A stretch of 64,000 bases of DNA, from contig CM055096.1 in the NCBI GenBank assembly GCA_029204225.1, positions 59,037,600-59,101,599 on the forward strand. Direction: 5' to 3'. The notes under the pieces are model-generated. The model made no database searches and was not told the DNA's origin. It was given only the letters and a program-made list of their open reading frames with translations. The position numbers were made by a program, and so were the translations under genes. The stretch is from Diphasiastrum complanatum. Lineage: Eukaryota; Streptophyta; Lycopodiopsida; Lycopodiales; Lycopodiaceae. This document shows, one piece after another, positions 3,880 through 63,831 of the stretch. The first letter of the stretch is position 1. The number at the start of each line of letters is the position of its first letter.

Positions 3880-17190
<13,311 letters not shown>

Positions 17191-25145: not shown

Positions 25146-25583
25146 CCATATTACGTCGGCTTGGGGTCATAAGAGGATAAAATATGTCAAGCCATAGTCT
25201 ACCGTATTTTCATACAGTCTACAGCTATGTATACGGTTGCACATCAATTATTGGTGCAACTTCAAATGATGTTTACGTCTACAAGTCTAGCTCAGTGTAC
25301 TAGTACGAGGTGTGTATGTGGTAGCATATACGTACATGACTCAACGTATGGTTCGCTAAGACCTTTAGTTGTTTGCCAATATCCTCGGTATACAAAATGC
25401 CTAATGATATACCCTTGTAAGATTATACAAACCATTTTGGGGTGGACATATACATAGGAGGCCGACTAGTATCTACCATCATCAACCAGGCATCATCCCC
25501 AGTATCAACTGACCTAGCTAATATCAGTCTTTACGATGTTAGGGTCAATCCCCAACCTAGGCCAATCTTACCACAAGCAATAC
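25146..25583. other. Spacer between eL30 promoter and Ty3-derived insertion
   Basis: No gene or repeat is recognisable in these about 440 bp. The last five bases (AATAC, 25579-25583) are the left target-site copy of the neighbouring insertion. Confidence 0.6.
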
Positions 25584-25862
25584 TGTAGTGGGTTTCTTTC
25601 CTTGCCTAACCTGAATCCAAGATTTAATCAATCTAGTATCAAAGAGACGAAGTTAGTTGTCACGCATAGATTCGTTCCCATGAGAGCGATAATATAGTTC
25701 AGATTTTAACATGAATGGAAGATTCACATCTAACTCTAACATCCATTAACCCTACATCCACTAACACTAGATCCATTAACACTACATCCACAACAAGATA
25801 GCTTACTCTTTCTCTCTCCCTTCTCTCTCATAAAAAGTATAATAACATGCAATCCCAATAAC

Positions 25863-27045: not shown

Positions 27046-27572
27046 GATAGCTTACTCTTTCTCTCTCCCCCTTTCTCTCTCATAAAAAGTATAATAACAT
27101 GCAATCCCAATAACAATCAGATCCAACAATTAGCAAAATCCAAAGAAAGCATGAGAGATGGAGGAAAAGTGATAGAGAGCAAGGACATTCATCAATCCAT
27201 TTCAGAAGAGAACCAATCTGCTTTATTGAAATGAGAAAATGAACATGTGTAGGAACTCAAATTGGTCCCTTTTTATAGTAGAGAGGAGTACCCTGGCCTC
27301 TGAATCCTACCGGTCCATTTCTGCCTCCCTAATTATTCAAATTTAAGAAAGAGTGGAAACCATCCAAATTGGAGGGAAACCCAACTTTATTCACTAACTT
27401 GACATTTAGGCCCTGCGACATTACAAGTCCCGCAAAAAGGTCTAAAGTCATTTTATTGACTTGTAACTAATCAAATAACTATGTGATCATCGGGTTGGAC
27501 TTACACACACAAGGTGCCAAATCCCTCTCACTTATTAACTAGGGTTAGGGTTGCCTTGCAAACCCTCCAACA

Positions 27573-29059
27573 AATACTTAGGACAATACCCAATTTTTTT
27601 TTCTTCGCGAAGGGGGGAGGGGAGAGTTTTGAATGAATATTTGTGCATATGTAAGCTCAACAAAGATTCATCATTGTCATGCGAAAAAAGTATGCATGTC
27701 CCCCTTGCAACAAATAGGACTTTTTGAATGCAATTTTCCTTTTATTCATATATTTTTGTGTGTAGTCTGAATGGAGGCTTGTAGCTAGGTGTCTCGTTTT
27801 TTTTTTTCCATTGCTTGCAAACTAAAAAATATGTTTGCAATTATTCATACTCAAGGTTGATGATTGACTAGTATCACACTTGCAACACCATTTTGGTTGA
27901 TGCAATTGTGCAACTCATAGATCACTTGGTTTATGATAACATGAAATCGACTAGTTAACTGTTAAAATAAAATAAAAAACAAGTAAATGCTAGGAGTCGA
28001 TTAGTATAAAAAATCTGCCTCTTGTATATGTGGAGCTTTTGGACTAGAGTTGGAAGTATATCATTAAGTTCGTCCCTCGAGTCCCAATAATTTAGTGCTT
28101 GGATTTGTAGATAACCAATAAGCATGAAAATCTAGGTAAAAGATTCAATACATGATGTCATATTTGCCCAATACCCACTCCCAAATCAAGAACCAAATGC
28201 ATACATGGACCTTGGCAGCAGTAACCGATGGTTACTTAGAACAAAAAAAAAATCAACATATATGTGAGAACCTTCCAACACTAGTCTAGGCCTATGTTAG
28301 GCAAAGGCCTCTCATAATTCAGTCGATTGTCTCACATACTCCTATTCCTAATTAAACTCCCACCTCCATGCCTGCAAGCAATCACCAAAATACCCCTTTG
28401 GCCTTTGGATAGATTTGGAGATCAGACATTTTCACTAAATTTTACATGGAGGAGAGTTCCTCATATTGAGAAGGCGATTTGCTAAACAATCAAGTGAATG
28501 CAATGCCTCACAACTCACCATGCAACAAGCTTAAAGCCCCTCAATCAAAATTGGTGATGGTTGAAGAGCAACCCTTTGTGACATGAATGAGTTAGAGCAT
28601 AATATTGATGCTAAAGGAGTGACTTGAATACGCGGTGGCTTCATTGTCATGCTGTTAGGAACATTGGTGATGCTTGATGAGCTACATATTGCCATGAATG
28701 AGTTAGCATAATGACACAAAATCATTGACTTGGATACTTGTTGCCTCATTGTCATGCATGTAGGAACATTGATAAAGGCCAATCCTCTGACGTTGAGAGA
28801 CTAGATTGGCACCCATACCTTAATTCCTACTGTGAGGCAATCTAGTGCTTAAATTAGGAATTGAGGGCATCCACTTGCACTAGTGAAATTGTTGTTCATA
28901 GATGGTGGATATAGATTCAACATATTTGAAAAACTATATCAAGCGTGGTTTCTAGCTTGTATGGATTTCACCCCTTTTGCATTCAAGTTGGATCATTAAT
29001 CTTGTATTGGTAGCAAATGTCCAAGTCCTTTTAATTAATGTAAATTTGCCATATCCTGT
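27573..29059. other. Intergenic region with a short tandem duplication
   Basis: No recognisable gene. At about 28550-28770 a unit of roughly 105-115 bp occurs twice with divergence (shared phrases: catgaatgagtta, cattgtcatg, taggaacattg). AT-rich otherwise. Confidence 0.6.
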
Positions 29060-35783: not shown

Positions 35784-35788
35784 AAGGT

Positions 35789-36540
35789 TGTAGTGGGTTT
35801 CTTTCCTTGCCTAACCTAAATCCAAGATCTAGTCAATCTAGCATCATAGAGACGAAGTTAGTTGGCATGCGTAGGTTCGTTCCCATGAGAGCGATAGTTT
35901 TAGTTCATATTTCAGCATGAATGGAAGATCCAAACTCTAACTCTACATCCATTAACCCTATTCTTTAACAATACGATCCATTAACTACGATCCACAACAA
36001 AGATAGCTTACACTTCTTCTCTCTCTATTTCTCTCTCATAAAAAGTATAATAACATGCAATCCCAATAACAATCAGATCCAACAATTAGCAAAAATCCAA
36101 AGAAAGTATGAGAGATGGAGAAGGAAAGAAGAAGAGCAAGGACATTCATCAACCCATTTATGAAGAGAACCAATCTGCTTTATTGAAATGAGAAAATGAA
36201 CATGAGGAGCAACTCGAGTACCACCCTTCTTATAGTAGAGAGGAGGACCCTGGCCTCTGAATCCTATTGGTCCATTCTTGCCTCTCTTTTTATTCAAATT
36301 TAAAAAAGTGTGGGAACCATCAAAATTGGAGGGAAATCCAACTTTATTCACTAACTTGACATTTAGACTCTGCGACATTAAAAGTCCCGCAAAAAGACCT
36401 AAAGTCCTTTTATTGACTTTTAACTAATCAATCAAATAACTATGTGATCATCGGGTTGGACTTACACACGCAGGGTGCCAAATCCCTCTCACTTATTAAC
36501 TAGGGTTAGGGTTGCCTTGGGATCCGCAAACCCTCCAGCA
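35789..36540 (-). repeat. 3' LTR of Ty3 element
   Basis: 752 bp, TGTAGTGGG...CCCTCCAGCA on the plus strand. Closely similar to 60481-61251 over its whole length. The main visible difference is the CT tract, which is short and interrupted here. The last-but-few base differs from CCAACA in the partner. Confidence 0.92.
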
Positions 36541-42674: not shown

Positions 42675-42709
42675 CATTAGAGGAGTTCTCAATAACAAAA
42701 AGACCCTTT
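42675..42709 (+). repeat. Left terminal inverted repeat
   Basis: Matches the reverse complement of 56804-56838 at 34 of 35 bases (difference at base 21). The reverse complement could also be read as open frame continuous with the Ty3 linker, so by itself it is ambiguous; the partner and the 63781 copy argue for a TIR. Confidence 0.7.
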
Positions 42710-43003: not shown

Positions 43004-44384
43004 ATGTACAGTTACATAAAATATGGTATACGCAGTAACTATGACTATGTTGGCATTCACATTAGATTAAATGTGATACGAAAAATTGATATTAAGTATC
43101 ATATCAGAGAGATTTTTGGTGCCCAAGCTTTGAAAATAGCAATGGCAAGGAGACCTAGATCTACAATCGATTCTGTGATTCTTTACAATGAGAAAGATGA
43201 AGCTAATAACTGGAAGCCAACAAAATATACGAAGAACTCATGGGTATTGCTGCATCCATCATCAAAGGGCAATTTTTGACAAAAGAAAAGAGCAAAAATG
43301 GCTTACAAATCTTATTGGAAAGCAAAAATTTTGGAGTTTAAGACTACCCCGGGAGGTCAATCGATATCAGAAGTCTTAGTACAACATGTATATATGCATT
43401 CAGAAATCAAAGTATATGATATCAATCCTCATGATCATCAAAAATGTAATTGTAAGTATATCAAAACATATGCACTCTACAGCAATCATAGGTGATTTCC
43501 TTTATTGATGCTCTTCAGATTATGATTTAAATGCTTCAACATTGTTTTTTCTTTCAGATTTATATCCATCATGCATAAGTGAATGGGAGCTCGCACAATC
43601 ACTTGCAGGAATATTAGACGTGATTCACTCTGATGTTGAAAACCTGCAATACAGAGGAAGAAGTCCAAAGGAACTTGTAGATTGTGGTATCTATTTTTAT
43701 AAATCTTTATATACGCCACAGACAGATGGAGGTTTTGGCAAGCTCGAAGCAATTCCTTTGCCTAGTTTTCAAAGTGATGAGTGGCCTACTCCTGACAACA
43801 TTGTTTCTGAATTCTTGAGATGCAAGCTACTCATTGATATTAGAAATGCTATGAAGATAAGCACAGGCTCAAAAATTGTTCACCTAAGTTGGTTTATCTC
43901 ATTACATATATTTGTTGAGTTTTTCTCGAGTGCTAGTGTTCGTAGGACACCAACTTTATTTGTTTGCAAGGATTTATCAGATGAAACTTTGTCAGATCTC
44001 ATGGATCAAGGTTGGAATAGTAAAACAAATAATGACATAGAATGCAGGATTAAAAAGTCCTCAATGATCTTTCGTTATCATATCGAAAAGCAAATGCTCA
44101 GTCTCACATTTAGCTACCACAGATACAAGAAAATTGAAGGTACATGGCTACCACTGGATCAAGACTTTGAACTAAATAGTCACACAAATCAAATGGAGAT
44201 GAGCATTATCTACAATGAGGAATATTTGACTATGGTTGAGGTGGAAGAGCATTGGAAGCTTGATTTTATTAGAACAGAGCTCATGCTATTACAAACCAAT
44301 CTACCAACATATTTCAGATTTATCATCAACGGAAGACTCGTAAGTACTTTATGTTTATTGCCATTTCAAAATAGAACAAAATAA
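43004..44384 (+). pseudogene. Unknown gene of the TIR element (probably intron-containing)
   Basis: Two main open parts: 43004-43279 (91 codons; MARRPRSTIDSVILYNEKD in the middle) and 43542-44384 (about 275 codons after a plausible acceptor ttttctttcag at 43546-43556), with EWELAQSLAGILDVIHSDVE, TPTLFVCKDLSDETLSDLMD and an acidic C-terminal half. Between them, 43188-43495 is open in shifting frames and a donor-like TAG/GTGATT occurs near 43491. I recognise no family. Whether it is a spliced gene or a frameshifted one cannot be settled by eye. Confidence 0.45.
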
Positions 44385-45262: not shown

Positions 45263-46015
45263 TCATCTTGACACAAAATCCTTTAATACTATTGTATCTA
45301 TGGCATAGGATATGTCTTTCTCAAATTTAAGATAATCATCTAAATCTATATATGTATAAAAATTTGGAGGAGGTGGAGGAGGAGGTGGATGTGTAGTATC
45401 TACAGGAATTGAAGGGGTATTCAAAACAGATGTAGCTATATTTACAACATTATCAACAGGAGCGTTATCTACAATTGAGTTCGGGTTAGGCTTCACAGAA
45501 TCTGTGGTGTCTACCCTTCTTACTTTTTTGGGAGCTCTCTTGGGGGTTGTCTGCTTCCTAGGACGCTTCGTAGGAAGATCAGTCCTATCTAGAGGAGTTG
45601 GTCTGGGAGCAGCAGGCTGAGATACGTGTAACCTGCAAAACCTATCCCTCATTCTCATCAGGAGCTGAAAATCCTTGGGCATTATGGTGACTCTCCTGGA
45701 ATGGATTGCAAGCAAAAAAGAATCTTAAAAAAAAAGGCTAATGTAATCTTCAGCAACCTTTTGAAGGCACTAAAGAGCATTGGGTGTGAATCTAACCAAC
45801 AGTTTGAGATCATTTTTTGTTATGTTTCGGACAACACGGTAGAATGAAGCTCTTGGGATCAATAGAGCGGTTGATCTCTGATACTTGCGTATCTCAGAGA
45901 GCCACCTGCTGTGGGTGCGCGTTCTAGGTCTAGCGGGGGGTGTAATGGCAACCGCATGAGCTAAGGATGAGCCAGGAGAGAAGAAGTCCCTCCTTGTTTG
46001 GTTTCTCCTATCCAT
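45263..46015 (-). pseudogene. Histone H3-like (CENH3-like) gene with long C-terminal tail
   Basis: A 251-codon register from ATG at 46015 to a stop at 45263, broken by TAG (45770-45772) and TAA (45725-45727). N-terminal MDRRNQTRR recalls MARTKQTAR of H3. The histone fold follows: EIRKYQRST, LLIPRASFYRVVRNIT, a loop one residue longer than in canonical H3, VRFTPNAL, LQKVAEDYISLFF, AIHSRRVTIMPKDFQLL. The LLIP-ASF and KDF words and the longer loop 1 resemble plant CENH3 more than canonical H3. After the fold comes a 110-residue tail, basic (KRPRKQTTPKRAPKKVRR, NLS-like), then eight prolines and an acidic end. Both stops fall inside conserved helices without changing their length. Divergently transcribed from the gene at 46853. 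Confidence 0.75.
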
Positions 46016-46852
46016 GGACGTGTACTATGGGATAGCGGACTTGTGCATGACGGCAAGGATGAGCAGGGAAGGATGACAAAGAAGTCGTAGAGGACAGATA
46101 TGTACGGACAAAGCATACGGTATATCAGACCTGTGCAAGGAGAATATAAGAGAGAGAGAGAGATTAGCTTAGACAAAAGACGCACAAGTGCGATATGGAG
46201 AGACATGTAGGCAGACGTATCGGACTTGTGCGCATGGAAGGCGGTAGTAGGAATATCGATAGTGAAGGTCGCGCACAAGTGCGATATGCGGAGCGAAAAA
46301 AAAGTGAAAAAAAATTCATTGAAGTTTGTGATTTTATATCGTGGTTCGCACGTGCGAAACAACGTCCTGTCACACGTGTGGAACTTGTACGGCCAAATGC
46401 GAGAGCGACACATGTCGCCCTGTCACTTCACACGTGTGGGATATGTATGGGCAAATGCGGGAGCGACACGTGTTGTCAAATAAAGGAATGAACACGCGAC
46501 ACATGTACAGGTGTCATTTTACACGTGTCCAGGTGTCACCTCACACGTGCCAGTGCCTACACTCCAATTGAAAGTAGACACGTGTCCTTTGACCGTTGAC
46601 CACACATGTGTGAAAATTTAGTATAAATGACACGAAACCCGATTAATTTTTTATCTTTTTCCTTCTCGAAATTGATGGCATATCGCTCTTGTGTGCGTCC
46701 ATTGTTGTCCGTTTGTATGCAACTATACCTACTTGCGCACAAGTGCGATATCGGTATCTACCTGCCGTACATATCCCTTTTGTGCGCGATCTTGATAGTT
46801 AGTTTTGTTTCAGTTCTCCATTGCGCACAAGTGCGATATCTACGTCACTTCC
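46016..46852. promoter_or_regulatory. Shared divergent promoter region with repeated 17-mers and G-boxes
   Basis: The 840 bp between the histone-like gene (minus) and the unknown gene (plus) holds at least four close copies of GCGCACAAGTGCGATAT in plus orientation (about 46180, 46271, 46735, 46822) and at least four in minus orientation (about 46032, 46218, 46681, 46771). The centre (46345-46590) has about seven CACGTG cores, including a 14 bp perfect palindrome TTCGCACGTGCGAA (46345-46358). A TATA box (TATAAA, 46622-46627) faces the plus-strand gene. Confidence 0.7.
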
Positions 46853-48361
46853 ATGGCCTCTTCCTCGGGATCCTCATGAGATTCAGGCTTGAGTTCTTTT
46901 CTTAGTGAATTTGGGATTACTGAAAATTTAGACTACTTCCATAGCCTATTCCGGCCATATCTACATGTTTTCAGGACTGCACAACCAAATTCTGATGTAT
47001 TTTATGATCATAATGTTAGATTCAGAGATATACTTAGTAAGCCTATTTTCTCCATCGGTACACTCCAGTACATGCACTATACTGATCTTGTTCATTTCTT
47101 CCCAGTTTTCAGACATAGACTAGATAGAATATTCACCAAATTGTTTGGTCTATTCAAAAGTAGTTCAATGTGTCCTTATTGCAACAAGAAATGTCGATTG
47201 GTAGAATATCAGAATGGTTTTGTACTTTTTCTTTTAGTTCAGATCCCAGATGATGAGGAAGTTTCTGTTGCTGACCCTCCTTTTGCATCATCCTCTGTTC
47301 AGTCAGCCATTAAGGATATCAGTCACTTCCTTATCGACACTCCTGATAAGGAAAGTGACTTTATTGATGTAAATACTGATTTTCTTCGGGATTCTTTTAT
47401 TGGCCAAAGTTCATCTACTGATGAATTGATCCCTATAGAGGAGTCTAAATGTCTTTTCAATTTGCATGTATATTATGTTAATGACGATGTATATTTTACT
47501 ACTGCTGATTTATGTAAATTTTTTGACTATCGTGAAGATGAGATTCTATGTTTATTATCCGGCACAATTTCCGAATTCTCGGACTTTGTAGATTTTGAAA
47601 CACATGACCTTGTTGCTGGTATTGATTTTGATGATGAGGAGGGCTTTATGACCGGTGAAGAATGCCTGACTAAGACTTTATCAAATATTGCTGAGGATGA
47701 GCGAGGCAGACCATCCGATCACATCATTTCAATCCCAGATGGGCTTCCCTCGTCCATTATTAATGCATTTCACTGATCATTCCACTTCAGTACATGCTCA
47801 TTATATTGATCATCCTGATCTGGTTGCTGCTGATGATGAAGAATGTGTAAGTGTTTAAACTTCCTTTCATTAGAATGTTTTTAATCATTGAATGTGTTTT
47901 TGCTAACATATTTCCTATTGCAGGATGCTCTCATAATTGATTATTTTGCTGCCAGACGAGGTGGGTTCAAACAACATGCATCATCCTTCCAGAGGGATAG
48001 TGGACTTGGCCACTATCTTAGACATTTCCTGAAGAATGAGATTTGTATTGCTCATTCCAAGCTGAGCCCAGTTGGGGAGAGTCTTATAATGGCAGTTAAA
48101 GCTTTATCATTTTACCTAGGAGGACATAAATTTGTTAAGACAAATAAGATCATTTTTGTCAAAAGATCTTATGTTTTGAACATTTTACGTTTTACTGATG
48201 GGAATGTTCCTTTAAGGAGCTCCCATTATTCATTGTATTCCACTTATATTGAGCTTAGTGGAAATAAGAATAAGGCACATCTATCAGATGCATACGCTAG
48301 CAGAGAATTTCTTCATGACAATACTGCCATAAAATCTGACACACGATTTGATGATGAATAG
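46853..48361 (+). pseudogene. Unknown gene of the TIR element, acidic protein with CxxC pair, one intron
   Basis: ATG at 46853 follows a TATA box by about 230 bp. The frame has a TGA at codon 9 (46877; possible CGA-to-TGA), then runs open to 47776 with MCPYCNKKC near 47170 (zinc-ligand-like) and a strongly acidic second half. A one-base shift near 47760 gives HFTDHSTSVHAHYIDHPD and leads to a clean donor (GT at 47847) and acceptor (AG at 47922-47923). The last exon (47924-48361) encodes ALIIDYFAARRGGFKQHASS, ALSFYLGGHKFVKTNKIIF and SSHYSLYSTYIELSGNKNK. No family recognised. About 480 residues if repaired. Confidence 0.55.
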
Positions 48362-48852
48362 TTGACACTTTGTATTTTGTTATAATACAATCAATACATT
48401 TACACTGAGTATTTCTCCTCTCTTGTTCAATGAATTTGCAAGGCAATTCTAAACATGTCATGATTTGATGACAATGATGATCTTCTACTCAGCAATCATC
48501 TAATTTTCTCTTCCTGTATAAACTTGCATGCTTTTCTAAACTTGTTGTATTGTGTGGACTTTGTTATATGTCAAATCTGAACTCTGCGGTAGAACCACTG
48601 AAACAATTGACAAATGTAGTTTCGTTTTTCATTGGTTCCTCCATGTTGTGTGTTTCGATGAAATGCTGCTCGTGCTTGCCAGTGTGACTTCTCCATCCCT
48701 TGTGATGACCATACACTCAAGCTTCCATATGTGTTTGCAAAAAATGTTGTATGATCTCTTAGTATGTGCTGCATATGTCAAAATCATAATGTTAGTCTTA
48801 TGTTTGGATCTAAATATATATGAAAAATTGAAAGCATCTTAAAAATTTTATA
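48362..48852. other. Non-coding spacer after the unknown gene
   Basis: 3' flank of the plus-strand gene and of the converging transposase-like gene. No recognisable coding sequence. Confidence 0.5.
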
Positions 48853-48868
48853 CTAACCATGTAATGAG

Positions 48869-49117
48869 AGTTAAGGAAACACAATGTAAACACCTGACCG
48901 GATCAATCACCACAGCACAAAGTCAAGTGCAACAAGACCACAAAATTGCTCTCCTCAAACTGTATATTCAACTTACTCGTAAGTACAAAGATAAGTTGCT
49001 TAAAAAACACTCAAAGGGCTCGTAAAAGAAAGATGGCCCGATAACTCTAGAACTAAGCACACGTGGTGCCGTCGAAATAAGAAAGCATTGTATAAGTCGA
49101 TCATTGTTATTTTAACT
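48869..49117 (-). repeat. 3' LTR of the complete Copia element
   Basis: 249 bp, partner of 54594-54842. A minus-strand polypurine tract (TTGAGGGAGAG, 49118-49128) lies directly before it in element orientation. Confidence 0.93.
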
Positions 49118-49208
49118 CTCTCCCTCAATGATCAACATCTCTTTTTATTTTAGAGTTTACTCTATTCATGAAACATACCTCCATGATAGTATTACAAGTA
49201 AAGGCTTT

Positions 49209-52200
49209 TTACATGACCAGATCTAAGCCAAATTTGGCTCTAAAAGTCTCAAACTTTTCTTTACTTAAATCTTTCGTAAATATATCAACAACTTGTAATA
49301 ACGTAGAACAATGTACAATACTTATATCTTCAGATTGTAACTTTTCATGTACAAAGTGATATTTTACTTCAATATGTTTTGTCCTTGCGTGAAAGATAAG
49401 ATTTTTAGCCAATTGTATTCCACTTTGACTGTCACAGAAAATAACAGTGGGATTTACCTACTTCATGCCAATCTCACATAACAACTTACGTAGACAAACA
49501 ACTTCCTTGGTAGCACAACTTAACATTTTAAATTCGGCTTCTGTGGAAGAAATAGTATCTTGCTTCTTGCCAGACCATGAAAAACAACCGCTACCAAAAT
49601 TGAAGGCATAACCTGTTGTCGACTTTCTATCATCTATACTTCCTGCCCAATCAGCGTCAACATAACCTTGCAACTTAGGTAAAACACTTTGTCTTTTGTA
49701 GATTAGACCAAGGTTAGATGTACCTTTCACATACCTCAAAATCCTTTTTGCAGCTTTCCAATGGTCCATAGTGGGTGATGACATGAATTGGCTAATCAAA
49801 CTTACATCATAGCAGATATCCAGACGTGTAGTCATAAGATATATCAAACTTCCAACTAGCTGACGAAATAGTGTAGCATCAACATGTGCACTATCATCAA
49901 TACAAGATAATTTCTTACCAGCTTCGCAAGGGGTGATGGAAGGTTTGCCTCTGTCATATGAAATCTCTCCAATATCTCGCCCACATACTTGTTTTGACAT
50001 AACCTGATATCACTGCTAGTTTGCCATACTTCGACACCCAAGCAATAGTGCATAAGATCTAAATCTGCCATCTCAAACTGCTTGCATAAGTTGGCTTTGA
50101 TAGAATGAGTGAGGTTCTCATCATTGCCCGTGATAATGATATCATCAACGTAAAGTACAATCAAGACAATGCTGTCATCATTTATAAGAACATAAAGGTT
50201 TGGATCTGAATTTGTTCTTACAAACCCATGAAAAAGAAATTAACTGTCAATGCGTCCATACCATACGTGTGGCACTTGCTTAAGGCCATAAAGTGCTTTG
50301 TGTAGTTTACATACCTTCTGTTCTTGCTCTTTTGTCATGAAACCCTGCGGTTGGACCATGTAAACTTCTTCCTCTAAGTCACCATTCAAAAATACAGACT
50401 TCACATCCATTTGATGGATATTCCACCCAAAATGAGATGCTAAGGCAATGATAAGGCATAGCGTAGTCCACTTAGCCACTGGAGCAAATGTCTCTTCATA
50501 GTCAATTTCTCTGCTTTGCTCATAACCCTTCATTACTAGGCGTGCCTTATACTTTGCTATTGTGCCATCCGCATGAAACTTTGTTCTAAACACCCATTTG
50601 TTGTCAATGGGTTTCTTTCCAAGTGGTAGATCAACCAACTCCCATGTATCATGCCTGTGGATGGATTCTATCTCTTCTTCCATTGCCCTTTGCCACTCTT
50701 TGTGATCTTTTGCCTCATCAAAGGTTGATGGCTCTCGACACTTCAAAATGTCAGTCATTAGGGCATAGTTCACATGATAACGATCAAGAGACTTCCTTTC
50801 CCGTGTTGATCTTCTCACTTCACCTTGTGTGCTAGATCCTGTTTGATTTAGCTTTGCATCCTTCATGATCTTTTCATACCATTTTGGCATCTTAGATTCA
50901 GGTGATACACCACGTGGAGAGTATGTATCCCAAGGAGTGTCCAAGTAATGTCTCTTACTTCCAACCGGTTTTTCCTTTATTGCTCCTATTGGCAAGTACC
51001 TCCCCCTAGGCTCTTGAATAGGCGGTGTCCTTTCATACTCGCCCTCTCGACTCTCGTCTTCACGTGCATCATTTTGTGGAGCATCTTCTTCATCTTCTTC
51101 CTCCAGAATTGTGGGAAGTCTTTTGATGTTTTCACCACTTGCATGGTCTTCATCTTCATACCTATGCGTTTCATCAAAGATCACATCTTTGCTAATGTGA
51201 ATCTTATTCATTACAGGATCAAAACACTTGTAAGCTTTCGTTCTTTCATCATAACCGACGAAGATACACTTGATTTCTTTGGCATCAAGTTTCTTTCGCT
51301 CCTCCTTTGGCACATGTACATAGGCCTTACATCCAATGACACGAAACTTGTCGATTTTTGGCTTTATTCTAGTAAATGCTTCTTCAGGAGTCACATTTGG
51401 AACCGCAACTGTAGGGTCTCCTATTTTGCAAGAACGTTGCCGCACTGCACGCTTCTGACCAAAGTGAATCGGTCAATCCCATTTGCTTCATCATGGAACG
51501 TGCACTCTCCATAATAGTCCTGTTTTTCCTTTCAGCTACACCATTACTATGCGGCGTGTGTGACTGTGTGAATTGTCTTTTGATGCCGTGCTCTTTGCAA
51601 AAGTCTTCAAAATCATCAGATTTGTATTCGTCCCCTCTATCGATCTTAGCACTTTGATGCGTGCATCCAGTTGGTTCTCTACCAAAGTCTTGAACTCCTT
51701 GAAGCGAGCAAAAGCACCAGATTTTTTCTTCAAGAAATAAATCCATGTCCTCCTAGAATAATCATCTATGAACGTCATAAAATAATATGCTTTCCCCAAC
51801 AACACGGTCTTCATTGGGCCGCACAGGTCGCTGTGAATGAGTTCCAGCGGTTTTTAGCTCTTGCAGCTCCACCTTTCTTGAATGTCTCCCTGTGATGCTT
51901 TCTCATGATGCATCCTTCACATATTGCATGATGATCATCCTGCAATGCCGGTACCCCTATTACCATCTTCAGCTTCGCCATCAATCTCAAGCTCTCATAG
52001 TTCAAAAGACCAAGTCTTATGTGCCACAGTTCGGATTGAGATGCTGTTGAGATAGCCAAACTATATTCACCTGGTTTTGCAGCATCCAATTTATAAAGGC
52101 TACAATTACTATCTCTATAACCCTTCGCCACCACTTTGTGGTTGTGGTTCATATCCTTCATAAGACATCCATCCTTGACAAATTCAACTTTAAGATGTTG

Positions 52201-53340
52201 ATTTGCCATTACACCAACAGAAAGCAAACTCTTTTTGAGTCCAAGAACATAAAGTACATTAGGGATGTTTTTAATTTTGCCATCAGAAAACTGCACATGT
52301 ACATTGCCCACACCCTGTATCTGGCATTCCTCTCCATTGGCTTGAGTGACCTTATCCCCATCATGGATTGGTGAGAATTTTTCAAACCAATCACGTTTCC
52401 CGGTCATATGCCTTGTGGCGCCTGAATCTATGAACCATCTGGCACTATCATCAACTTGGGATGCCAATGCCGATGAGAAGACACTTGTCTCGTCATCCTC
52501 TCCATCATCTTCGGCAATGTTTCCTTGTTGAGTCACTTTTCCCGCCTTTATGTCCGCTTTCTTCTTATAACACTCACGTGCCCAATGACCCGGTTTGTGG
52601 CAATAGTAGCATTTGTCTTTCTTCTTCTTTTTCCCTTTTGATGATGACTCTCCCTCATCATCATCGTCCTTGGATTTCTTAGGAATCCTTTTCCATCCTT
52701 TCTGCTTGCCTTTAGCAAGCAAGGCTTGATCCTCTTGTGGGGTTGGCCTTGACTTCACCACTTCGCGACGCTGCTCTTCTTGCAACCTGATTCTGTGGAA
52801 GTCTTCAAAAGTAGGCAACCTCTCCCTCGAAGCAATGCCACTCACAAACATCTGTAGCCCTTCCGAGACACCGCTCATTGTGGTATGTACCAATTCAATA
52901 TCCCTGATTGGTTCTCCAATCGCCACAAGTTGATCTCTCAGCTCCTTTATCCTGGTGAAAAAAGATCTCACTGATTCACTTTCTTCCATTCTTACTGCGT
53001 TCAATTTCGACTTCAAGAACATGGCTCGAGCTGGATTTCAAGTTTGAAATTGCATTCTAAGAGCTTCCCAAGCTCCTCTAGCCATCGTGGCATCACTTAT
53101 ATGAGTGATCACATGGTCTTTCACTGAAAGATTGATCAAGGACAATGCTCTCTGCGCCTTTTTATCAAAGGCCCTTATGTCACCTGGAGTGGTATTTGGC
53201 CAGACTTCAATACCTACCACGATCTCCCACAACTATTTCTCCATCAAAATGCTCTTCATTTTGAATTTCCAGATGTTGTAGTTAGAAGCCCCATCAAGTT
53301 TGCTTGCATCACCCAAAATTGCCTCATTGATGTTTGCCAT
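49209..53340 (-). pseudogene. Copia gag-pol polyprotein, decayed
   Basis: ATG at 53340 (MANINEAILGDASKLDG). Gag runs in one register to about 51855 with a TAG (53233) and a TGA (53038) as only stops. It includes FFTRIKELRDQLVAIGEPI, a CCHC knuckle (CYYCHKPGHWAREC), protease (WFIDSGATRHMTGKRDWF) and CEGCIMRKHH. After a one-base shift comes integrase (MTFIDDYSRRTWIYFLKK, HTPHSNGVAERKNRTIMES), linker (FRVIGCKAYVHVPKEERKK), reverse transcriptase (NKWVFRTKFHADGTIAKYKA, HQMDVKSVFLNGDLEEEVYM, MIVLYVDDIIITGND with intact VDD) and RNase H (YVDADWAGSIDDRKSTTGYA), ending near 49209. Three or more shifts separate the parts. Confidence 0.93.
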
Positions 53341-54580
53341 CTCCAAACTGCTTGAAACTTCACTTGTAGGCTATAAAGTGTATGCTGGAGCCAACCGTGA
53401 TGTCAGAAATCAATAATAATGACCTACAATTTTTAGCTTACCAGGCCACCCGCCATTCTTTCACCGAATTGAAAGCCAAACTGGCGTCGTTTTCCGAAAT
53501 GCTTCTCGTCACCAACTCCCAGCTTCCTACCCAGTGGAATGGTGAAATCACTTCTGGCACGCTTCGAACACTTTCTCCATGACAATCACTTTGTTTTGGT
53601 GTACCGTACTTGCAGGTACAGTCAGGGTGCCCTTCGTTTGGAGGCTATACCTTTCGTTTGGCCAAAATAGGCTAAAGGAGGTGAAAATAAAGGCAATTTG
53701 GGTTTTTGAACTGTTTCTTCAGTGTGAAGAAACTTCACCCTTCAAAAACTTGGGACCCAACAATTTTTTCAGTTTGAAGATTTTTAATGAAGTTGCAATG
53801 CACTTTGCACTTCAGACCCCTTCAGACTTTTTTACATCAATCCAACGGATCCTTTAGATCCAACAACCCACCTGTCGTGTGATTCGAGATCGGACGGCTT
53901 TCCACGCTTTTGTGCGTTGATCAAGGGCCTTCGAAGCACCAAGCACTTCGGGCCGCTAACTGGCAAGCTGAACTGGGCGCGTGAGAGGTCCCGCGACCTC
54001 TCCTCCTCTTCTCTCTCTCTCTCTCTACAGTGGACTCTTCTCTCTCTTCACAAGCTATGGCTGCTCCATGTGGATCGATCTGGCTGCTTTCTTTCTCCAC
54101 GGCCAGTCGCGACCTCCTTACTACTGAATCACACTACCAGGGTGCCCATTCTCAGCAATTTACAGCTCTGAAAAAGGCCTCCTACAAGGAGATATCTCAA
54201 ATTTTGCACTTTGAAACCCTAGCTACTCTGAAGAGAAGGATATATTGGGCTTTACTCAGACTTTCCCTGAGCTTTCACTTACAACTCCTATCTGGTTGAA
54301 GTCGCCCTACAACAGGCCATCTTCTGCTCCAAATCGCTCTTCAAACGATGTTCGATTGGATTCAAACCAATCACAAATGCCAAGCAACCCTCCAGAAGAA
54401 TTTTTCAGCTTCAATCTTTGCTTGCTTTCTGATTCAATCGACAATTCCCTGTCTCTGAATCCTTTTTACAGCTTTGAGCTGTTCCACGAATCTCCACAGA
54501 CTCGGTTTTGTGCTTCCTAGCCAACAAACCGCCGTGAATTCGCAGCTCTCTGTTCTTGTCCGGTGATTCAAGCCACCAAG
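53341..54580 (-). other. Copia 5' leader
   Basis: About 1.2 kb between primer site and gag start. It is less AT-rich than the coding part, with a CT run at 54008-54027. Open frames on the plus strand here have no recognised domain and are taken as chance. Confidence 0.6.
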
Positions 54581-54593
54581 GGCTTTGATACCA
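54581..54593 (-). other. Primer binding site of the complete Copia element
   Basis: Minus-strand TGGTATCAAAGCC directly abuts the LTR. It is the tRNA-iMet primer site with one change (A for G at position 9). Confidence 0.88.
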
Positions 54594-54842
54594 AGTTAAA
54601 AAAACACAATTTAAATACCCGACCGGATCAATCACCACAGCACAACGTCAAGTGCAACAAGACCACATAATTGCTCTCCTCAAACTGTATATTCAACTTA
54701 CTCGTATGTACAGAGATAAGTTGCTTAAAAAACACTCAAAGGGCTCGTAAAAGAAAGATGGCCCGATAACTCTAGAACTAAGCACACGTGGTGCCGTCAA
54801 AATAAGAAAGCACTATATAAGTCGATCATTGTTATTTTAACT
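54594..54842 (-). repeat. 5' LTR of the complete Copia element
   Basis: 249 bp; minus strand starts AGTTAAAATAACAATGATC and ends in TTTTTTTAACT. Nearly identical to 48869-49117, differing at scattered positions, which suggests a fairly recent insertion. Confidence 0.93.
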
Positions 54843-56290
54843 ATGAGTGATATGATCTTCTCCCCATGCTTTTGATACTGCATTAACAAACTCGACACAA
54901 GTCCTTTGGACAACTTTCTTATTAATATCAGAGTATTTTTTTTTCTTATAATAACAATTATACTATCAAGCTTCTTCCATACATCAACTTTTAGTACTCT
55001 GGTTTTGCCGTCTTTCTCGAAATCCTGTGTGGAAGCAATAATATCTATCCAGACTGAGTGTTGAATATTAGAAGCCTTACCAGTATGATTTAATAGGAAA
55101 CGAAGTGCTTTTACTCCTCCTATGCTTGGCTTAGTTGGCATGTTCCCATTCTTTCCTGAAAGCTTTTCATCTTTTTGAATTTTGACATGTCCCGAGTCTT
55201 GCTTTTGATAACACATCTTCTAATCGAGAGATAGCTTCCTTTGCTAATGATGCTGGCTTAGTATTCCAAGCAAAAACTATATGAAGATAAATGATCTTTT
55301 CTATTAAGCTAACTTCTGCATGAAGAGTGCAAACATGCACATTTTTCAAGGGGATAGGCAGCACAGGCTTCCAGTTTGGATCTGTATATTCTCTAGTAAT
55401 TCCTGTACTCCTAGTTACATCTTTTGCCATTTTCATGTAGTACAAACAAGGGTGTTTTGATGTAGCACCGTGAGAGACATTATACATACATTTCAATGTT
55501 TTCAAATCACCTGCTAAGTGCCATTCAACATTGAAGTCTCCAACTCCTGGAACGTTGAGCAGTCCTCCATCCATATGGTCCTTGATGATCCTAGGATAAG
55601 ATGTCCTTGAGAATATCCATGATAATATATCATGATCCTCCTTTAGAACCTGTCCAAAAAATTAATCAGACTTAGTTTACAATGAACTAATACTATTCAA
55701 TGAATGTAATGTAGTAATGAGGCTAGTTACCTGAAACGCTGCCAACCACCATATATCATTTTCTGATTGGACACTGAATCTGAAATCTTCTTGGTTCTTT
55801 GTTTGTGATAGAGCACCATTCATGAGAGCTATACTAGCCCTCTCCATCTTCTGCCCTTTCACAATTTCTGACTCATCTAATTAAAGTACTATGATTATTT
55901 TGTCATTCATCTTTTCATAGGTTATATTATAGAATGTGACGATGTATCTCAGCAAGTAATTTAGATCAACAAATAAGTTTTTGATGAATTATAGAATATC
56001 GATCTTCCATCAGTTTCATACACCTCCTCAATATGAAATGGAGTTCCAGTGATCTTATGCATACCTATGTTTAATGTATCCCTCTCTTTCTTCAAGTGAT
56101 ATGTCCTAGGGATTGGGACTTTTCTAATTTGAACATGCTTAAAAGCTTCTCTAATTAGTTTAAATATTGTTGTATACCAGCAAAATCACAAGCACCTTGA
56201 ACTATAGTCTTATCTAAATTTTTTTGAATGTCCACCATCAAAGACTCTGCTATTTTACACTTTACATTTGAACTCCTATTGTTCATCATG
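54843..56290 (-). pseudogene. Transposase-like gene of the TIR element, with one intron
   Basis: From about 56290 downward: FKLIREAFKHVQIRKVPIP and PFHIEEVYETDGRSIFYNSS, a frame break near 55960, then LDESEIVKGQKMERAS and FRFSVQSENDIWWLAAFQ (55860-55731). A GT-AG intron of 81 nt (55650-55730) joins in phase to VLKEDHDILSWIFSRT, then FNVEWHLAGDLKTLKCMYNV, SKHPCLYYMK and HVCTLHAEVSLIEKIIY. A second break lies near 55210. The pattern D...(VEW..AGD.K) followed by a C-terminal helical part looks like an RNase H-fold transposase, but I cannot name the superfamily. The final codons and TAA lie at 48863-48853, cut off by the Copia insertion. Confidence 0.55.
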
Positions 56291-56803: not shown

Positions 56804-56838
56804 AAAGGGTCTTTTTGATATTGAGAACTCCTCTAATG
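56804..56838 (-). repeat. Right terminal inverted repeat
   Basis: Inverted partner of 42675-42709. Read inward it continues ...CTTTAAGAAATGCCATGTAGG, which resembles 63781-63831 beyond the part shared with the left end. Confidence 0.75.
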
Positions 56839-56879: not shown

Positions 56880-59306
56880 TTGCAAGAGCTTCATTTCAAT
56901 TGACAGTATCCATTTGAGAATCGTAATGAACTCCCAATTTTTTCGTTGGTCGATCACAAGTGTGTCCCGTTGTTGACGAATCGTCATCCTCTTTTTGAAC
57001 CACTAGTTTGATAGTCCATGTTGTAGGATTAACTTTAACTGCACGTTCATGATTTTTTAAAGTGATTTTTCCGGTACCCTAGTTACGAATTACTTGCACA
57101 ACTCGTAACCATGGACGTCCCAAAAGAACTCAATAGACATTTGGCGCTTCTGGTAAGTCCATCACTACGAAAGTAATGACGAACTGTACTCCCACAATTC
57201 TGACAGGTATATCTTCCACCATTCCTCGTGGACGAACTATCGTTTGATCAGCTAGCTTAATAGCAAAAGTAGTAGGCTTAATCTTTGTAAGGCCCCATTT
57301 TGCACATAACTTTGTAGAGATCAGGTTAACTCCTGAACAGCCATCTATCACGGTTGCTTCTTTAGGAAATTGTCTATGATGTATCGGTAGAGTGATATTC
57401 TTTTGTTCACTTTTCCAAGCGGCTCCAACATGGAGTACTTCGTTAGATTCTTCAAATCCAGCACAAAAAAGTGGCTCTTGATGGACTTTTGGTTCTTCTT
57501 GAGCTAACTTTTCTGCTAAGACTTCTTTTGCTTTTGGCACCAACTTCAGGAACTCTCCTAATGAGATATTGATCTTGCTAGACAAAATGTTCATGAGCAG
57601 TTCTGTTTGCGGTGCTTCCGGTTCAATCATCTTGAAGGATTCTTCATGATGATGTAACTGATCATTCATATTCGTACGTCAATTTCTTGGAGGCTGCAAT
57701 GGTGAAGACTGAACTTCAGCTGTTGCTTTAGCAGCTTCAAGCTCCTCTTCTTCTTGCAGATGTTTGATCCACTGCCTCATATTCTGATATCTTCGTTTTT
57801 CTGCATTAAAATTTAAATAGACTCCAGATGTTGTTGGTATATCGTTCAATGGTATAGAATCAGCAAGTACTGGATCCATTGTTGGTTCTTTTTGCTTCTG
57901 TGCTCTGGTGACCACCATCAAGGGTGCACTTGGTTTATTCGGAGCTACTGGTCTTTGCTTGATTGTTATCAAATTTACAGGCGCTGTAGCTGGTGGTGGC
58001 TTCGGTCTTGCTGGACAGTCTTTATAGCAATGCCCATAATCACAGTCACAACAGAATGGTACAAATTTCTCTTTATTTGGACATTCTACGACTCTGTGAT
58101 TTTCTCCACATGCAAAGCATCCAATTGGTGCTCTGGTCCAATTTCTGGAGGCTTGTTGTTGAGTGGCAGCATAAATGGCATACTGTTCTGAAGATCCACC
58201 TTCTTGATCATTACCGTAGTTCCATTGCGCAACACTTCCGTAAGATTCTGGTTCTATCAAATTAGCAGGAGGAGCGGAGTGCTTTGGTGGGGCAGGTAAA
58301 GCTAAACATTATGGGTATCCAAGAGCAGATTGTCGCGGACTTGCTGCTGGATTTCCTCCATACTGCGATTCTCGATATCCCATCTGGACATACCGTTGTT
58401 GAATTATCCGAGGGTTGAAGTTGCAAAAAGCAATCTCATGATCAGGTGAAATACACAGATGGCAAACACTGAGTTCCATTCGTTTTTTCAATTGAGGACA
58501 CTCATTTACTGTTTGATTCCCTGTACAAATAAAACACCAGACATTTTCCCTGGTAGAAAAAGTCTTTGCAAACTTTTCAGGTTCCTTGTTTGCTTCCCCG
58601 TGGAAAGCTTTGATCTTCTCATCAAATTGCGACTGCAACTTTTCCATCTGCTTTTGCTGCTTCTTCCCAAGTTTCTCGAACTCATTGAGCATCATTTCTG
58701 CAGTAGCGTTGGCATTCGTTGATGCAATAGTGGTGGATGTCTTAGTAGTCTGCCCTGCTGTATAAGGCAACATACTGATATTTGGCTCATCATCTGAATC
58801 TTCATCCTCCTCCCGAATTGCATCGTCCATAGTATTTTGCAAGAGTGCATACTCATTATGGCGTTTCAGCTCACGTCTGATCCGTTTAGGTAGACCTGAC
58901 AAAAACCACATAATCATGGCATTCTCATTAATCAGCTCAGGTTCGCATTCAGATCTGAGACGTTTCACCCGTTCAATGTAATCTCGAACCATTTCCCTCT
59001 TTCCCATTTTAATTTTACTTAAACTTTCGCGGTTTGAACCGTGTGATAAGGGCTCGTTTAACAACCTCCCAATCTGTATGCTCAGTTTCGTCTTGATTCT
59101 AGTACCAATCTTGTGTTGCGCCTGTTAAGGCCATAGGAAATAGCTTAAGATTATCTTGAGGATAAATCTCGCATAGACTTCATAGGCTTCAGGATAGATA
59201 TGAAGAAATCTAATCTGTTAATCCATTATATTTGGGTAGATCCAATCAGGGTGCTCTTCTAACAATAATTGGATTGATTTCTTATGGAGCACCTCCAGGG
59301 ACAGCC
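56880..59306 (-). pseudogene. Ty3 gag-protease
   Basis: From 59306: gag start (MAVPGG) with early stops, then the retrotransposon gag core (KMGKREMVRDYIERVKRLRS, MIMWFLSGLPKRIRREL; about 59010-58840), a coiled segment, CCHC-like knuckles (WCFICTGNQTVNECPQ, then HLCISPDHEIAFC and CFACGENHRVVEC with CDCDYGHCYKDC). Next comes a retroviral-type protease with a changed active site (EATVIDGCSGVNLISTKL where a D[ST]G is expected; here DGCSG) at about 57370-57300. The frame continues past VRPRGMVEDIPVRIVG into a linker that stops at the TIR insertion. Three or more stops or frame changes are visible. Confidence 0.85.
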
Positions 59307-59499
59307 ATCTTCTCATATCCAAATCAAGCAGACAATGAGATTGGATCTAGATTTTTCAATGCAAACTATTTTAGATCAGATCTGCTTGATTTATTTCTCT
59401 ACATCTCAAAAATGATAAATTTCTCAAAATCCAAATCAGAATATATAAGATTTGACCCAAATTTTGACAGAGACTTGATCTGGAAAATCAAAAACTAAA

Positions 59500-60150
59500 A
59501 ATAGGACTGGCGAAGGTTCCCTAGGCGAAGATTGGCTCGGCGAAGGTTCAACAGTGTTATTTCTGAAAAAAACTCTCTGATCAACTTTTCTCACAATTTC
59601 TTGAGAAATAACCTTCGCCAACCTTTCAGATGAAAGATCTGACACAAATAAAACTATGGAAAATCGGACGAAGGTTTTAGACACAAGAAAATACAGTTTC
59701 TGTACTTTGGCGAGGGTAAAAATCAAAATTTTTTGTGATCTGATCAAGAAGAATCTTTGCCGAACTTAAAATTAGAACTTTACTATAAATAGAATATTTT
59801 GAAAACTCGGTGAAGGTTCTGGCGAAGGATTAAGAGTAATACTGGTAATTTTGCAAAAAAGTGACATTTTTGGCAAAAATATGACAATATGACAACTGAT
59901 CCTCTGAAACCCTTTTTATTTTTGGTATTATTCTTCGCCGACCTGGCAGTAGATAGATCTGAATCACACCTAAGCACAGTGAATCGGTTTTTCTATTTTT
60001 TTTTTAGGGTTTTGATTATTTTTTGGTGTTTTTTGACGATTTTTCTGATGTTTCTGAAAATCTGCTGGGAATTAATCTTTGCCCTTCAAACTGAAGGTTC
60101 TGTAAACAAAACCGAAGGTGTCTGCAACTCGGCAAAGGTTTCCTGAAAGA
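59500..60150. repeat. Ty3 leader with scattered GGCGAAGGTT motifs
   Basis: Between gag start and primer site. Copies or near copies of ggcgaaggtt occur at about 59509, 59524, 59539, 59612 (reverse), 59670, 59710, 59808, 59821, 59934 (reverse), 60110 and 60132. The rest is AT-rich with T runs. Function unknown. Confidence 0.6.
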
Positions 60151-60458
60151 GGATAAGACGTTCTAAGCTCTGATGACGCTTTTTGCCTCTTTTTGATCAA
60201 ATCTGACAGATTTGACCGATTTTTGTTATTTTTTCTGATATCTCAGATCCAAATGGATCTTAAGATTGGTGATCTGAGTAGCTTTTCTTGTTTAACAATC
60301 AGATTAGATTTCAAACAAGCAAATCCACTCAAATCAAGCAAAATCAATCCCAAACTAACTCTAAAATGTAGAGTCTAACACTATTCATGCCAAAATGAGA
60401 TGCCTAATACAAGCTAACCATCCAACAATCATGCTGCAAACTAAAAAATTGGCATAGC

Positions 60459-60476
60459 TCCCCGGCAACGGCGCCA
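60459..60476 (-). other. Primer binding site (tRNA-Asp type)
   Basis: Minus-strand TGGCGCCGTTGCCGGGGA, four bases from the LTR. This 18-mer is the usual primer site of plant Tat/Ogre/Athila Ty3 elements. Confidence 0.9.
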
Positions 60477-60480
60477 AAAT

Positions 60481-60672
60481 TGTAGTGGGTTTCTTTCCTT
60501 ACCTAACCTGAATCCAAGATCTAGTCACGCGTAGGTTCGTTCCCATGAGAGCGATAGTTTTAGTTCAGATTTCAACATGAATAAAAGATCCAAACTCTAA
60601 CTCTACATCAATTAACCCTATTCTTTAACACTACGATCCATTAACTCTATGATCCACAACAAAGATAGCTTA

Positions 60673-60758
<86 letters not shown>

Positions 60759-61251
60759 AAGTATAATAACATGCAATCCCAATAACAATCAGTTTCAACA
60801 ATTAGCAGAAATCCAAAGAAAGCATGAGAGATTGAGAAGGAAAGAAGAAGAGCAAGGACATTCATCAACCCATTTCTGAAGAGAACCAATCTGCTTTATT
60901 GAAATGAGGAAATGAACATGAGGAGCAACTCGAGTTGGTCCCTTCTTGTAGTAGAGAGGAGAATTCTGGCCTCTGAATTCTATTGGTCCATTCTTGCCTC
61001 TCTTTTTATTCAAATTTAAAAAAGTGTGGGAACCATCAAAATTGGAGGGAAACACAACTTTATTCACTAACTTGACATTTAGGCCCTGCGACATTTTCCG
61101 CAAAAAGACCTAAAGTCCTTTTATTGACTTTTAACTAATCAATCAAATAACTATGTGATCATCGGGTTGGACTTACACACGCAAGGTGCCAAATCCCTCT
61201 CACTTATTAACTAGGGTTAGGGTTGCCTTGGGATCCGCAAACCCTCCAACA
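60481..61251 (-). repeat. 5' LTR of Ty3 element
   Basis: 771 bp, TGTAGTGGG...CCCTCCAACA on the plus strand, beside the primer site (four bases apart). It contains a (CT)n run of about 80 bp at 60674-60752, expanded compared with the other LTR. A third, rearranged copy lies at 25584-27572. Confidence 0.92.
60674..60752 (+). repeat. (CT)n microsatellite in Ty3 LTR
   Basis: About 39 CT units inside the 5' LTR. The corresponding place in the 3' LTR has only short mixed CT/TTCT runs, so the tract grew after insertion or in the donor copy. Confidence 0.93.
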
Positions 61252-61256
61252 AAGGC

Positions 61257-61480: not shown

Positions 61481-63780
61481 GCATCTCCCTCATGCTAGGG
61501 AATAGGATGCAGGTGTAGAGAGAGTAACCTAGAAATGAAAACTCACAATGAGAATGAGAGTAGGGCGAGTTTCACCAAGAGGAAATAGCCCTTGCCTTAC
61601 CTGTGCATGTGTCCGTGCAAGCATATAGCATTCCCATACATGTAGTTCATTACTATTGATACTCTACACCATGCCAATAGTAGTCCTAACTCATGCAATA
61701 GCTCCATATGTCACAATATGTGTGATTGAGTCCTCACAAAATTATTAATAACATTTCTGGCCTAGTCTAGAATGACGTGGCTAATAAACTCGAGTACTAG
61801 AGTACCGTGTATTCAAGTCTAGGACTATATCGAATCCTAGATACAGGACATGGACGTAACATTCTTCCCCCTTGAATTGGTTCTGTGCTCAAAACAAGAA
61901 AGGAAAACTTAAAAACCATTTCTTTAACTTTTAATACTTACCTAGAAAATCATTATCCTTAGTCTGACTTTCACCTCAAACAAGCACTCAGAGATAGAAC
62001 AATCTTTCAATTCTTTCTCTTTGTTTTGGAGTACAAACTCGGTTTTTAGAAAAGTACACTAAGTAATAAATTTTTCTTCTGGGCTATACTCTCAATAAAT
62101 CGGTAATATCACCTTCATGTAAACACTTTACATGACACACTGGATGAATCATTGCTTAACTCATGATATCAAAATTAAAGAAACTAACAATTACAGTCTA
62201 AAACTATCCACAATCTCTTATAGACAATTCATAAATGCTTCTTGATACAAATATGTAAAAAATTGGCAAAATCTAGCTTGATCTTTTGCTATCATGTACG
62301 TAGTGAAATATCACATGTGTGGAGCATGTTCCCACGTGTCAAGGGTAGCCATAATATTTTTAGTTATTTTATGAAGAGTTTGAATAGTCAATAGGCCTTA
62401 ATCTTGAGGACTAGTGACACTTTCCTATGTGTTTTCATGAAGTAATGTGACCAATCAAAAGCAAAAGATCCATGAAATTGGTCCAATCACAATCAAGGGT
62501 CCCTATGTCACTAGACCAATCAAAGTTAGTGGAGGTATGTAAGAGGTCCAATCATATTACTTGATTTAATTTCTACTCCTCTTGGATCTCGAATCACTAT
62601 ATAGAGGAGCTCACTCTTTGTACAATTAATTAAGTTGGGAGTTAATGCAATTTTGGTTCACATACATTTTCGGTCTATTCTCTCTCTACCCGAGTATGAC
62701 TATATTTTCTCTCTCTACCTAAGAGCATCATGGTTGGTTTTGTCTCTCATCGTGAGTTTCACTTTGTTTTTTCATGTGAATGTGAAAAAGTAGCTTCTCT
62801 TTGGATGATCATAACTTCTGGTGTAGATGAGCTCTTGCCTTGATTCAAAGCTTGATAGATAGCCCTTGAAAATTCAATTTGATCTATCATAGATGCATCT
62901 TGTGCAACCTCACATGCAAGGAGGGTGTTGTAGATCTCTGCATGGTCCTCAAATCTCATTTTTAACAAAATACTCTTAGAATCCAAAATTACAAAGTATC
63001 ACAATTCATTTAACCAGAATCCTAGGAGATCCATTAAGATAAAAATGATCTTAGCTCAAGTCTGAGTATCCTATATACTATCTTGAGTTAATTGTCCCTG
63101 TTTCTAGCATCTTATGCAAGAAAATAGCAATCATCCAGTTGTAATAGATTTGTCTGTCTCCTATAACCATTAGAGATTTAGAACGAAAACTGTACACAAG
63201 CTTTTACAGACTATAACCTATAGCAGAATACCATCCACTAAATTATTTAAATTCTCCATAAGTAAAAGCAATTCCCTTATGAGACTTCCTATGAGACACA
63301 AAATTCTCAATTCACTAGAGTGAAGAGATTTAGATTTTCAACAAACTAATCTAAATTCCTAACTCATTCGATGGATCGAGAATTATTCACCATACTAAAG
63401 AATCATCACAATTCCTTATAATTCTTAGACCATAGTTAAGTATCAATTTATGATCCGTCAATCATAAATATTTAGATCCTTATGATTTGTCAATCATAAC
63501 TAACTAGAATCCAAAATTATACATGACTCAGGAAAAAATAAGAATCATATCAAAATCTTTCCCACCAGGAAAATACTGGTTTTAAAAATATTCTCTAAAA
63601 CTAGATTCTTTACCAGAAGTGCGAGATATACAAATTCTATATGCCACAAGTAATTAAAGACAGAAAGCATACCAAAATGATAATGACAACCATCCTCAAC
63701 TACAAAAACTTTAGATTACCATCTAAAACCAAATTCAGACACCCAAAGTCATGTGAATATAAATTCAGTTGTTCGTTGCC
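61481..63780. other. Unassigned AT-rich region, promoter-like segment inside
   Basis: No recognisable protein; a 75-codon minus open frame at 62759-62986 has no known motif. A pyrimidine run (ttcttcccccttgaattgg) at 61862-61880 follows a ...GTAACA end and looks like the polypurine tract and LTR boundary of a minus-strand element, but no LTR partner is seen. Confidence 0.5.
62451..62640 (+). promoter_or_regulatory. Promoter-like segment: four CCAAT boxes and a TATA box
   Basis: CCAAT in plus orientation at 62451, 62483, 62516 and 62548, then TATATA at 62598-62603 (cactatatagaggagctc). The spacing is right for a strong plus-strand promoter, but no plus-strand gene follows in the window. It may be part of an LTR. 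Confidence 0.5.
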
Positions 63781-63831
63781 ATTAGAGGAATTTTGAATTC
63801 AAAAAAGACCCTCTAAGGAATGCCACGTAGA
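63781..63831 (+). repeat. Terminus related to the TIRs of the 42675-56838 element
   Basis: Starts CATTAGAGGAATTTTGAATT and continues with AAAAAAGACCCTCTAAGGAAT and GCCACGTAG. It resembles the right TIR (read inward) over about 50 bp with several changes. An element of this family may begin here and extend beyond the window, or this is a lone end. Confidence 0.6.

Follow-up and report, generated by a model that had tools for sequence, protein, structure and literature searches.

A diverged, K9-less histone H3 carried by a decayed DNA transposon of the lycophyte Diphasiastrum complanatum: a possible anti-silencing gene

A stretch of 64,000 nucleotides from the lycophyte Diphasiastrum complanatum (contig CM055096.1), referred to below as the window, contains a decayed copy of a DNA transposon with terminal inverted repeats (TIRs). 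It carries genes for a histone H3 (eH3), for a transposase predicted to adopt a RAG1/Transib fold (gD) and for two further proteins (gA and g1). The same four genes are common to two diverged subfamilies, A and B, and the eH3 fold is, judging from substitution rates, under purifying selection. Of the roles considered for this histone, anti-silencing appears from the sequence to be the most likely, with centromere targeting and transposase tethering less likely. The statement as a whole, that a decayed TIR transposon carries an H3 variant and that this transposon-encoded, K9-less histone acts as an anti-silencing factor, is put forward tentatively and with somewhat less than even confidence.

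The element in the window (Table 1) measures approximately 8.2 kb, to which a nested Copia retrotransposon adds approximately 6 kb; the Copia identity of the nested ORFs was recognized by eye. Its inverted ends are 35 bp long, 97% identical and opposite in orientation. The Copia insertion splits gD, leaving the exon with the putative catalytic E on one side and the earlier exons on the other, and one stop codon lies close to the first D of this gD copy. Elsewhere in the window, another diverged copy of a type A end is found near the edge (63780-63830), and a repeat family occurs in pieces at 25578-27574, 35788-36540 and 57557-61253 that are ~76-96% alike, the last of which overlaps ORFs that weakly match gag. 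A stretch with a tubulin-tyrosine ligase (TTL) domain (5287-5640; Pfam 1.8e-11) is likely derived from a host gene.

Table 1. Features of the transposon copy in the window
Feature	Coordinates	Strand	Remarks
Type A left terminal inverted repeat	42675..42709	+	Self-comparison; start common to six type A copies including the window
g1, element gene	43143..44384	+	Open exon 43509-44384; extent upstream of the exon putative
eH3, element histone H3 gene	45263..46015	-	Two stops; C-terminal tail truncated; fold ~45642-45907
Divergent H3/gA intergenic region	46180..46839		Seven near-copies of the imperfect palindrome GCGCACAAGTGCGATAT
gA, element gene	46853..48361	+	CPYC..C motif; one stop near start; probable intron ~47850-47922
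gD transposase, last known exon	48583..48777	-	Putative catalytic E (YGSLSVWSSQGMEKSH)
Copia LTR retrotransposon nested in gD	48869..54842	-	LTRs 249 bp, 95% identical; foreign to the element
gD upstream exons	54843..55907	-	First D in 55728-55907; WHLAGDLK and CTLH motifs in 55167-55661
Type A right terminal inverted repeat	56804..56838	-	Self-comparison

A sequence-only reading of the window had described an H3 fold interrupted by two in-frame stops, and this was borne out: the gene is read in frame 1 of the minus strand, and its two stops, a TAG and a TAA, both fall within the fold. PF00125 is matched at 9.9e-25 by the window copy (with X at the stops), at 4.7e-28 by the copy at locus L020 and at 8.3e-30 by that at L013, and in a search of PDB sequences with the window eH3 the best 60 of 175 matches are all H3 (top score 76.9 bits). 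The features named in that reading (LLIPRASF, AEDY, KDFQLL and a loop 1 exceeding that of canonical H3 by one residue) are all found. Its tail of about 110 residues has to be revised, as the true tail is ~200 residues; open type A copies run to ~330-340 residues and the window copy is shortened, with a tail region ~440 bp shorter than in L020. The two stops are decay of a single copy, and many other copies of both types are open, with reading frames of ~300-440 residues.

In the 1.74-Gb host genome, the best 150 of 6,325 candidates from a histone profile search comprised 13 canonical H3 places and ~140 others, nearly all of them diverged. The large contigs hold at least 150 eH3 places of type A (7,377 candidates) and at least 150 of type B (6,403 candidates). 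Inverted terminal repeats are common to the dispersed copies, as in Class II TIR elements; with up to three mismatches allowed, the terminal sequences match 3,759 times genome-wide for type A and 1,828 times for type B, and reversed controls match 0 times. Since these ends far outnumber the H3 places listed, many copies probably lack H3.

Twenty H3 loci of 10 kb each, chosen for open frames, were fetched and split by their match to the window genes into 7 of type A (H3 76-82% identical) and 13 of type B (42-48%). At the protein level, the open g1 exon recurs in 6/7 type A loci (at least 72%) and in 12/13 type B loci (~30-34%). gA is found in 6/7 and 10/13, and gD in 5/7 and 7/13, respectively; gD is inverted at L025, and H3 is the sole match to the window genes at L019. 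Two loci hold complete elements, L020 (8,681 bp, its two ends agreeing at all 35 positions) and L023 (8,957 bp). Among the type B gD places listed, 56/113 have a type B H3 place within 12 kb, where 0.23 would be expected; 54 of these 56 pairs lie on opposite strands, mostly 2.8-3.9 kb apart, and the one of the 57 unpaired places that was read has a truncated H3. An exact end is found no more than 8 kb from 5/9 type A H3 places on contig C1 and the part of C2 that was listed (0.10 by chance; equalled in 0 of 20,000 draws) and from 9/22 type B H3 places on C1-C3, with 0/6 on C1.

The histone had been read as cargo of the element and not as a host gene into which a transposon had inserted, and the recurrence of H3 across the genome with the same ends and neighbor genes upholds this; other copies with the same TIRs do carry H3. 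That the gene is instead a host H3 variant struck by an insertion, or an assembly artifact, has next to no probability and is already contradicted. The decay of the window copy would be in keeping with it, as would the near-identity, flanks included, of L011 with L013 and of L010 with L024. Against it stand the at least 150 places of each type over the large contigs with the same neighbors, together with one insertion with a precise empty site: at L015, a short type B derivative (7809-8897 in the H3-minus orientation) is inserted in a type A gD, and the empty site is given by L017, L028 and L014.

In the window, the region that separates the divergently oriented H3 and gA genes has 7 matches to the palindrome GCGCACAAGTGCGATAT, against 0.07 expected, along with CACACGTGT repeats. 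The palindrome occurs 3-8 times per copy in 8/8 type A copies, the window included, and 0 times in 13/13 type B copies. It is possible that these palindromes are binding sites for a protein of the element. Neither g1 nor gA matched any Pfam family above the cut-off.

The predicted core of gD has its best structural matches in RAG1, RAG-like and Transib transposases over ~340 residues, and the model shows an RNase H-like core fold as in RAG1. Foldseek gave TM-scores of 0.28-0.41 and rmsd of 12-15 for this model; a second model, of the gD relative P0106 with the E exon included, has a pLDDT of 64. Like RAG1, ProtoRAG and Transib, gD has two D positions, an E in its last exon and a CxxC 20 residues past the second D, a spacing after the second D that is also that of RAG1. 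It differs from these systems in that its host is a plant and that no 5-bp target site duplication (TSD) or RAG2-like partner was found. At the sequence level, a profile of 47 gD sequences retrieved no RAG1 or Transib chains from the PDB sequences, a set with few Transib entries, at E ≤ 10. A 5-bp duplication is present in 0/9 two-ended elements (the window, L020, L023, L010, the copy nested in L015 and four on C1/C2); TCA stands on both sides in 1/4 elements of C1/C2, the nested L015 copy has at most 1 bp, and the elements are read as having no consistent TSD. A CAC-type terminal motif is a feature of RAG1 and Transib elements, whereas the ends of both subfamilies start with CATTAG. No PHD or kelch (RAG2-like) domain was detected in the gA and g1 exon pieces scanned with Pfam.

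The relatives of gD (P0055-P0133) form a broad transposase-like family that includes Ceratopteris proteins and has no Pfam domain. A viral origin was considered and set aside, with gD relatives confirmed in neither the viral nor the prokaryote contigs searched. In a gD tree of 80 rows built by a quick method, type A joins two proteins (support 100) and type B falls among 39 sequences, Ceratopteris included (98). On this tree, the transposases of A and B are not each other's closest relatives, and thus the common gene set probably predates the split of the subfamilies or moved between lineages. If the set is older than the split, H3 would be predicted in fern elements. Proteins of the eH3 type were found only in Diphasiastrum (P0137-P0139 and P0142) in the opened part of the best 120 of 927 matches to the A and B H3 alignment. 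Two candidates from other plants were rejected: Actinidia P0001, taken for an outlying relative of the window H3, consists of two canonical H3 copies in tandem, as does Telopea P0134. Matches in Nymphaea and Lotus score similarly to these two.

The descent of eH3 was examined in a tree of 44 rows and 104 columns with long branches, including 7 type A sequences, 9 type B sequences and four CENH3s. A and B join (support 84/82) as a long-branched group that lies outside the CENH3 clade (87/87) and outside H3, and with either type removed the other still falls outside the CENH3 clade. A grouping with canonical H3, one outcome that would have spoken against cargo, is rejected by the AU test for A (p = 0.002) and for A and B together (p = 0.024). 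Identity with the true host CENH3 locus fails as well, that being a separate gene on chromosome 3 (O6H91_03G120200). eH3 may be of the CENH3 type: its residues are CENH3-like, and it forms its own group outside the four sampled CENH3s, with which a union (AU p = 0.249) is not rejected. With the host CENH3 it shares an LIPxAPF-like helix 1, AEDY in type A, KDLHLARRLR in type B and a divergent tail. It differs in being element-borne, of high copy number and long-tailed, with its own place in the tree and with MARTKQTAR kept in type B.

These data bear on the explanation that eH3 is a captured CENH3 derivative, which would direct the transposase complex toward chromatin containing CENH3 or enable the element to persist there. 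We regard it as unlikely. LIPRAPF, AEDY (A) and KDLHLARRLR (B) as in host CENH3 argue for it, a union with CENH3 is rejected for neither A and B together nor A (p = 0.299) nor B (p = 0.175) alone, and CENH3-chromatin integration by Arabidopsis retrotransposons has been reported (cited in the available portions of PMC13317346); the placement of A and B, together or singly, outside the CENH3 clade argues against it. The positions on C1 likewise point both ways. Exact type A ends are concentrated at 64.9-66.7 Mb (15/81) and 95-100.7 Mb (28/81), exceeding all 2,000 uniform simulations, and the second region also holds 5/7 type B gD places and 3/6 type B H3 places. Exact type B ends, however, number 0/29 and 1/29 in the two regions, the type A H3 places listed on C1 fall in neither (0/7), and two clusters on one contig are unlike a single centromere. 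Centromere-linked insertion, which had been suggested for the element, would be one reading of the clustering of type A ends, a pattern that exact type B ends and type A H3 places do not follow; the clusters may be centromere, subtelomere or duplication.

The two types of eH3 differ in their tails. Type A begins with MDRRKQTRRD and has a C-terminal tail of ~200 residues, and type B has MSEEMARTKQTARD and a long proline-rich stretch ahead of the fold, directly after which the protein ends. An upstream ATG (MSEE-MARTKQTAR) is retained in 13/13 type B copies and would, if used, add four residues to the N-terminus. Among 21 readable N-termini (8 of type A, including the window, and 13 of type B), position 9 in alignment numbering is D in 18, G in 3 and K in 0. 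K4 is retained in 20 of the 21, and the window copy has N at that position. The median dN/dS of the fold is 0.17 in type A and 0.39 in type B, values that are biased downward by the choice of copies for histone score and open frame. Outside the fold it is 0.36 and 0.58 in the type A tails and 0.75 in the N-terminal part of type B. Between A and B, dS of the fold exceeds 2 or is saturated, with dN at ~0.5. The contrast between fold and tail and the distance between A and B are less affected by copy choice; several copies are near-duplicates.

Such constraint is relevant to the view that eH3 rides along by accident, having been acquired once from a host H3 gene and then amplified without function. 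There is precedent in Dothideomycetes, where, according to the available portions of one report, hAT DNA transposons with an 18-bp TIR and an 8-bp TSD captured and amplified host canonical H3; in P. fijiensis the captured H3 is RIP-inactivated in all copies except the original, and P. tritici-repentis has tens of possibly active copies (PMC6710886). As far as that text goes, the two systems are alike in being TIR DNA transposons that bear an H3 sequence in hundreds of copies. The lycophyte eH3 differs in being diverged and constrained, with tails of its own, and in its occurrence in two subfamilies; the transposase fold is a different one, and a consistent TSD is lacking. The excess of type A ends over H3 places would suit a passenger, but the low dN/dS of the fold across a saturated distance, the presence of H3 in two subfamilies whose transposases appear not to be nearest relatives, a K9 change common to A and B and mostly to D, and the many open frames make this explanation distinctly improbable.

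For the anti-silencing reading, the following course is proposed. An active element would produce eH3, which would pair with host H4 and be deposited on the element or on donor or target DNA. With K9 absent from its tail and K4 kept in nearly every copy, the resulting nucleosomes could not take H3K9 methylation, which drives the silencing of plant transposons, and the locus would stay open to transcription and to the transposase. A self-supplied histone fits the anatomy of the element because of the palindrome-rich intergenic region shared with gA, the apparently selected fold and the K9-less tail. Loss of K9 would also be expected of a CENH3-type or drifting tail.

Alternatively, eH3 may package or mark element DNA for the RAG1-like transposase, as a tether that reads the K4 tail and favors self-recognition or excision from nucleosomal DNA. 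RAG2 reads H3K4me3, and the predicted RAG1/Transib fold of gD, the near-intact MARTKQTAR of type B and the co-occurrence of H3 with the transposase are consistent with such a role. The lack of a RAG2-like domain in the pieces scanned, and N-termini that in type A (MDRRKQTRRD) and in the possibly four residues longer type B would both be poorer RAG2 ligands, weigh against it, and we consider it quite unlikely. A broader proposal would combine this idea with the anti-silencing reading: an old lycophyte/fern transposon lineage with a RAG1-fold transposase and an H3 variant as a core gene, the K9-less, K4-bearing chromatin of which encodes both escape from silencing and recruitment of the transposase. 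This combination is doubtful, and is held less firmly than anti-silencing by itself.

Other transposons have been described that bring in proteins acting on chromatin or DNA. In Arabidopsis, VANDAL DNA transposons encode an extra anti-silencing protein, VANC (available portions of PMC10398659 and PMC5735166), and fungal DNA transposons encode a TET/JBP dioxygenase (available portions of PMC12730594). On that partial text, a chromatin or DNA-modification gene is cargo in the fungal elements as in the eH3 element, with an enzyme acting on DNA methylation there versus a histone here. A repeat-rich noncoding region likewise lies beside the genes in VANDAL, for which anti-silencing is reported in the text available, whereas it is proposed here. 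VANC is not known to be a histone. A report of an H3-carrying element of this kind was not found in openly licensed papers, and the word "histone" is absent from the available portions of a 2026 review of plant-transposon gene capture (PMC13317346).

Gene capture by transposons is known, and so, though rarer, are transposon-encoded anti-silencing proteins. The elements of D. complanatum suggest that transposons can carry a chromatin protein of their own, and a histone maintained by selection among the standard genes of a transposon would give the element a direct means of altering the chromatin around it. The K9-less eH3 would thereby provide a natural way to test whether silencing of nucleosomal DNA requires H3K9 methylation of the nucleosome that it is wrapped around. 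In addition, RAG1-fold transposases in plants, here predicted from models of proteins that matched no Pfam model, would bear on the age and spread of V(D)J recombinase relatives.
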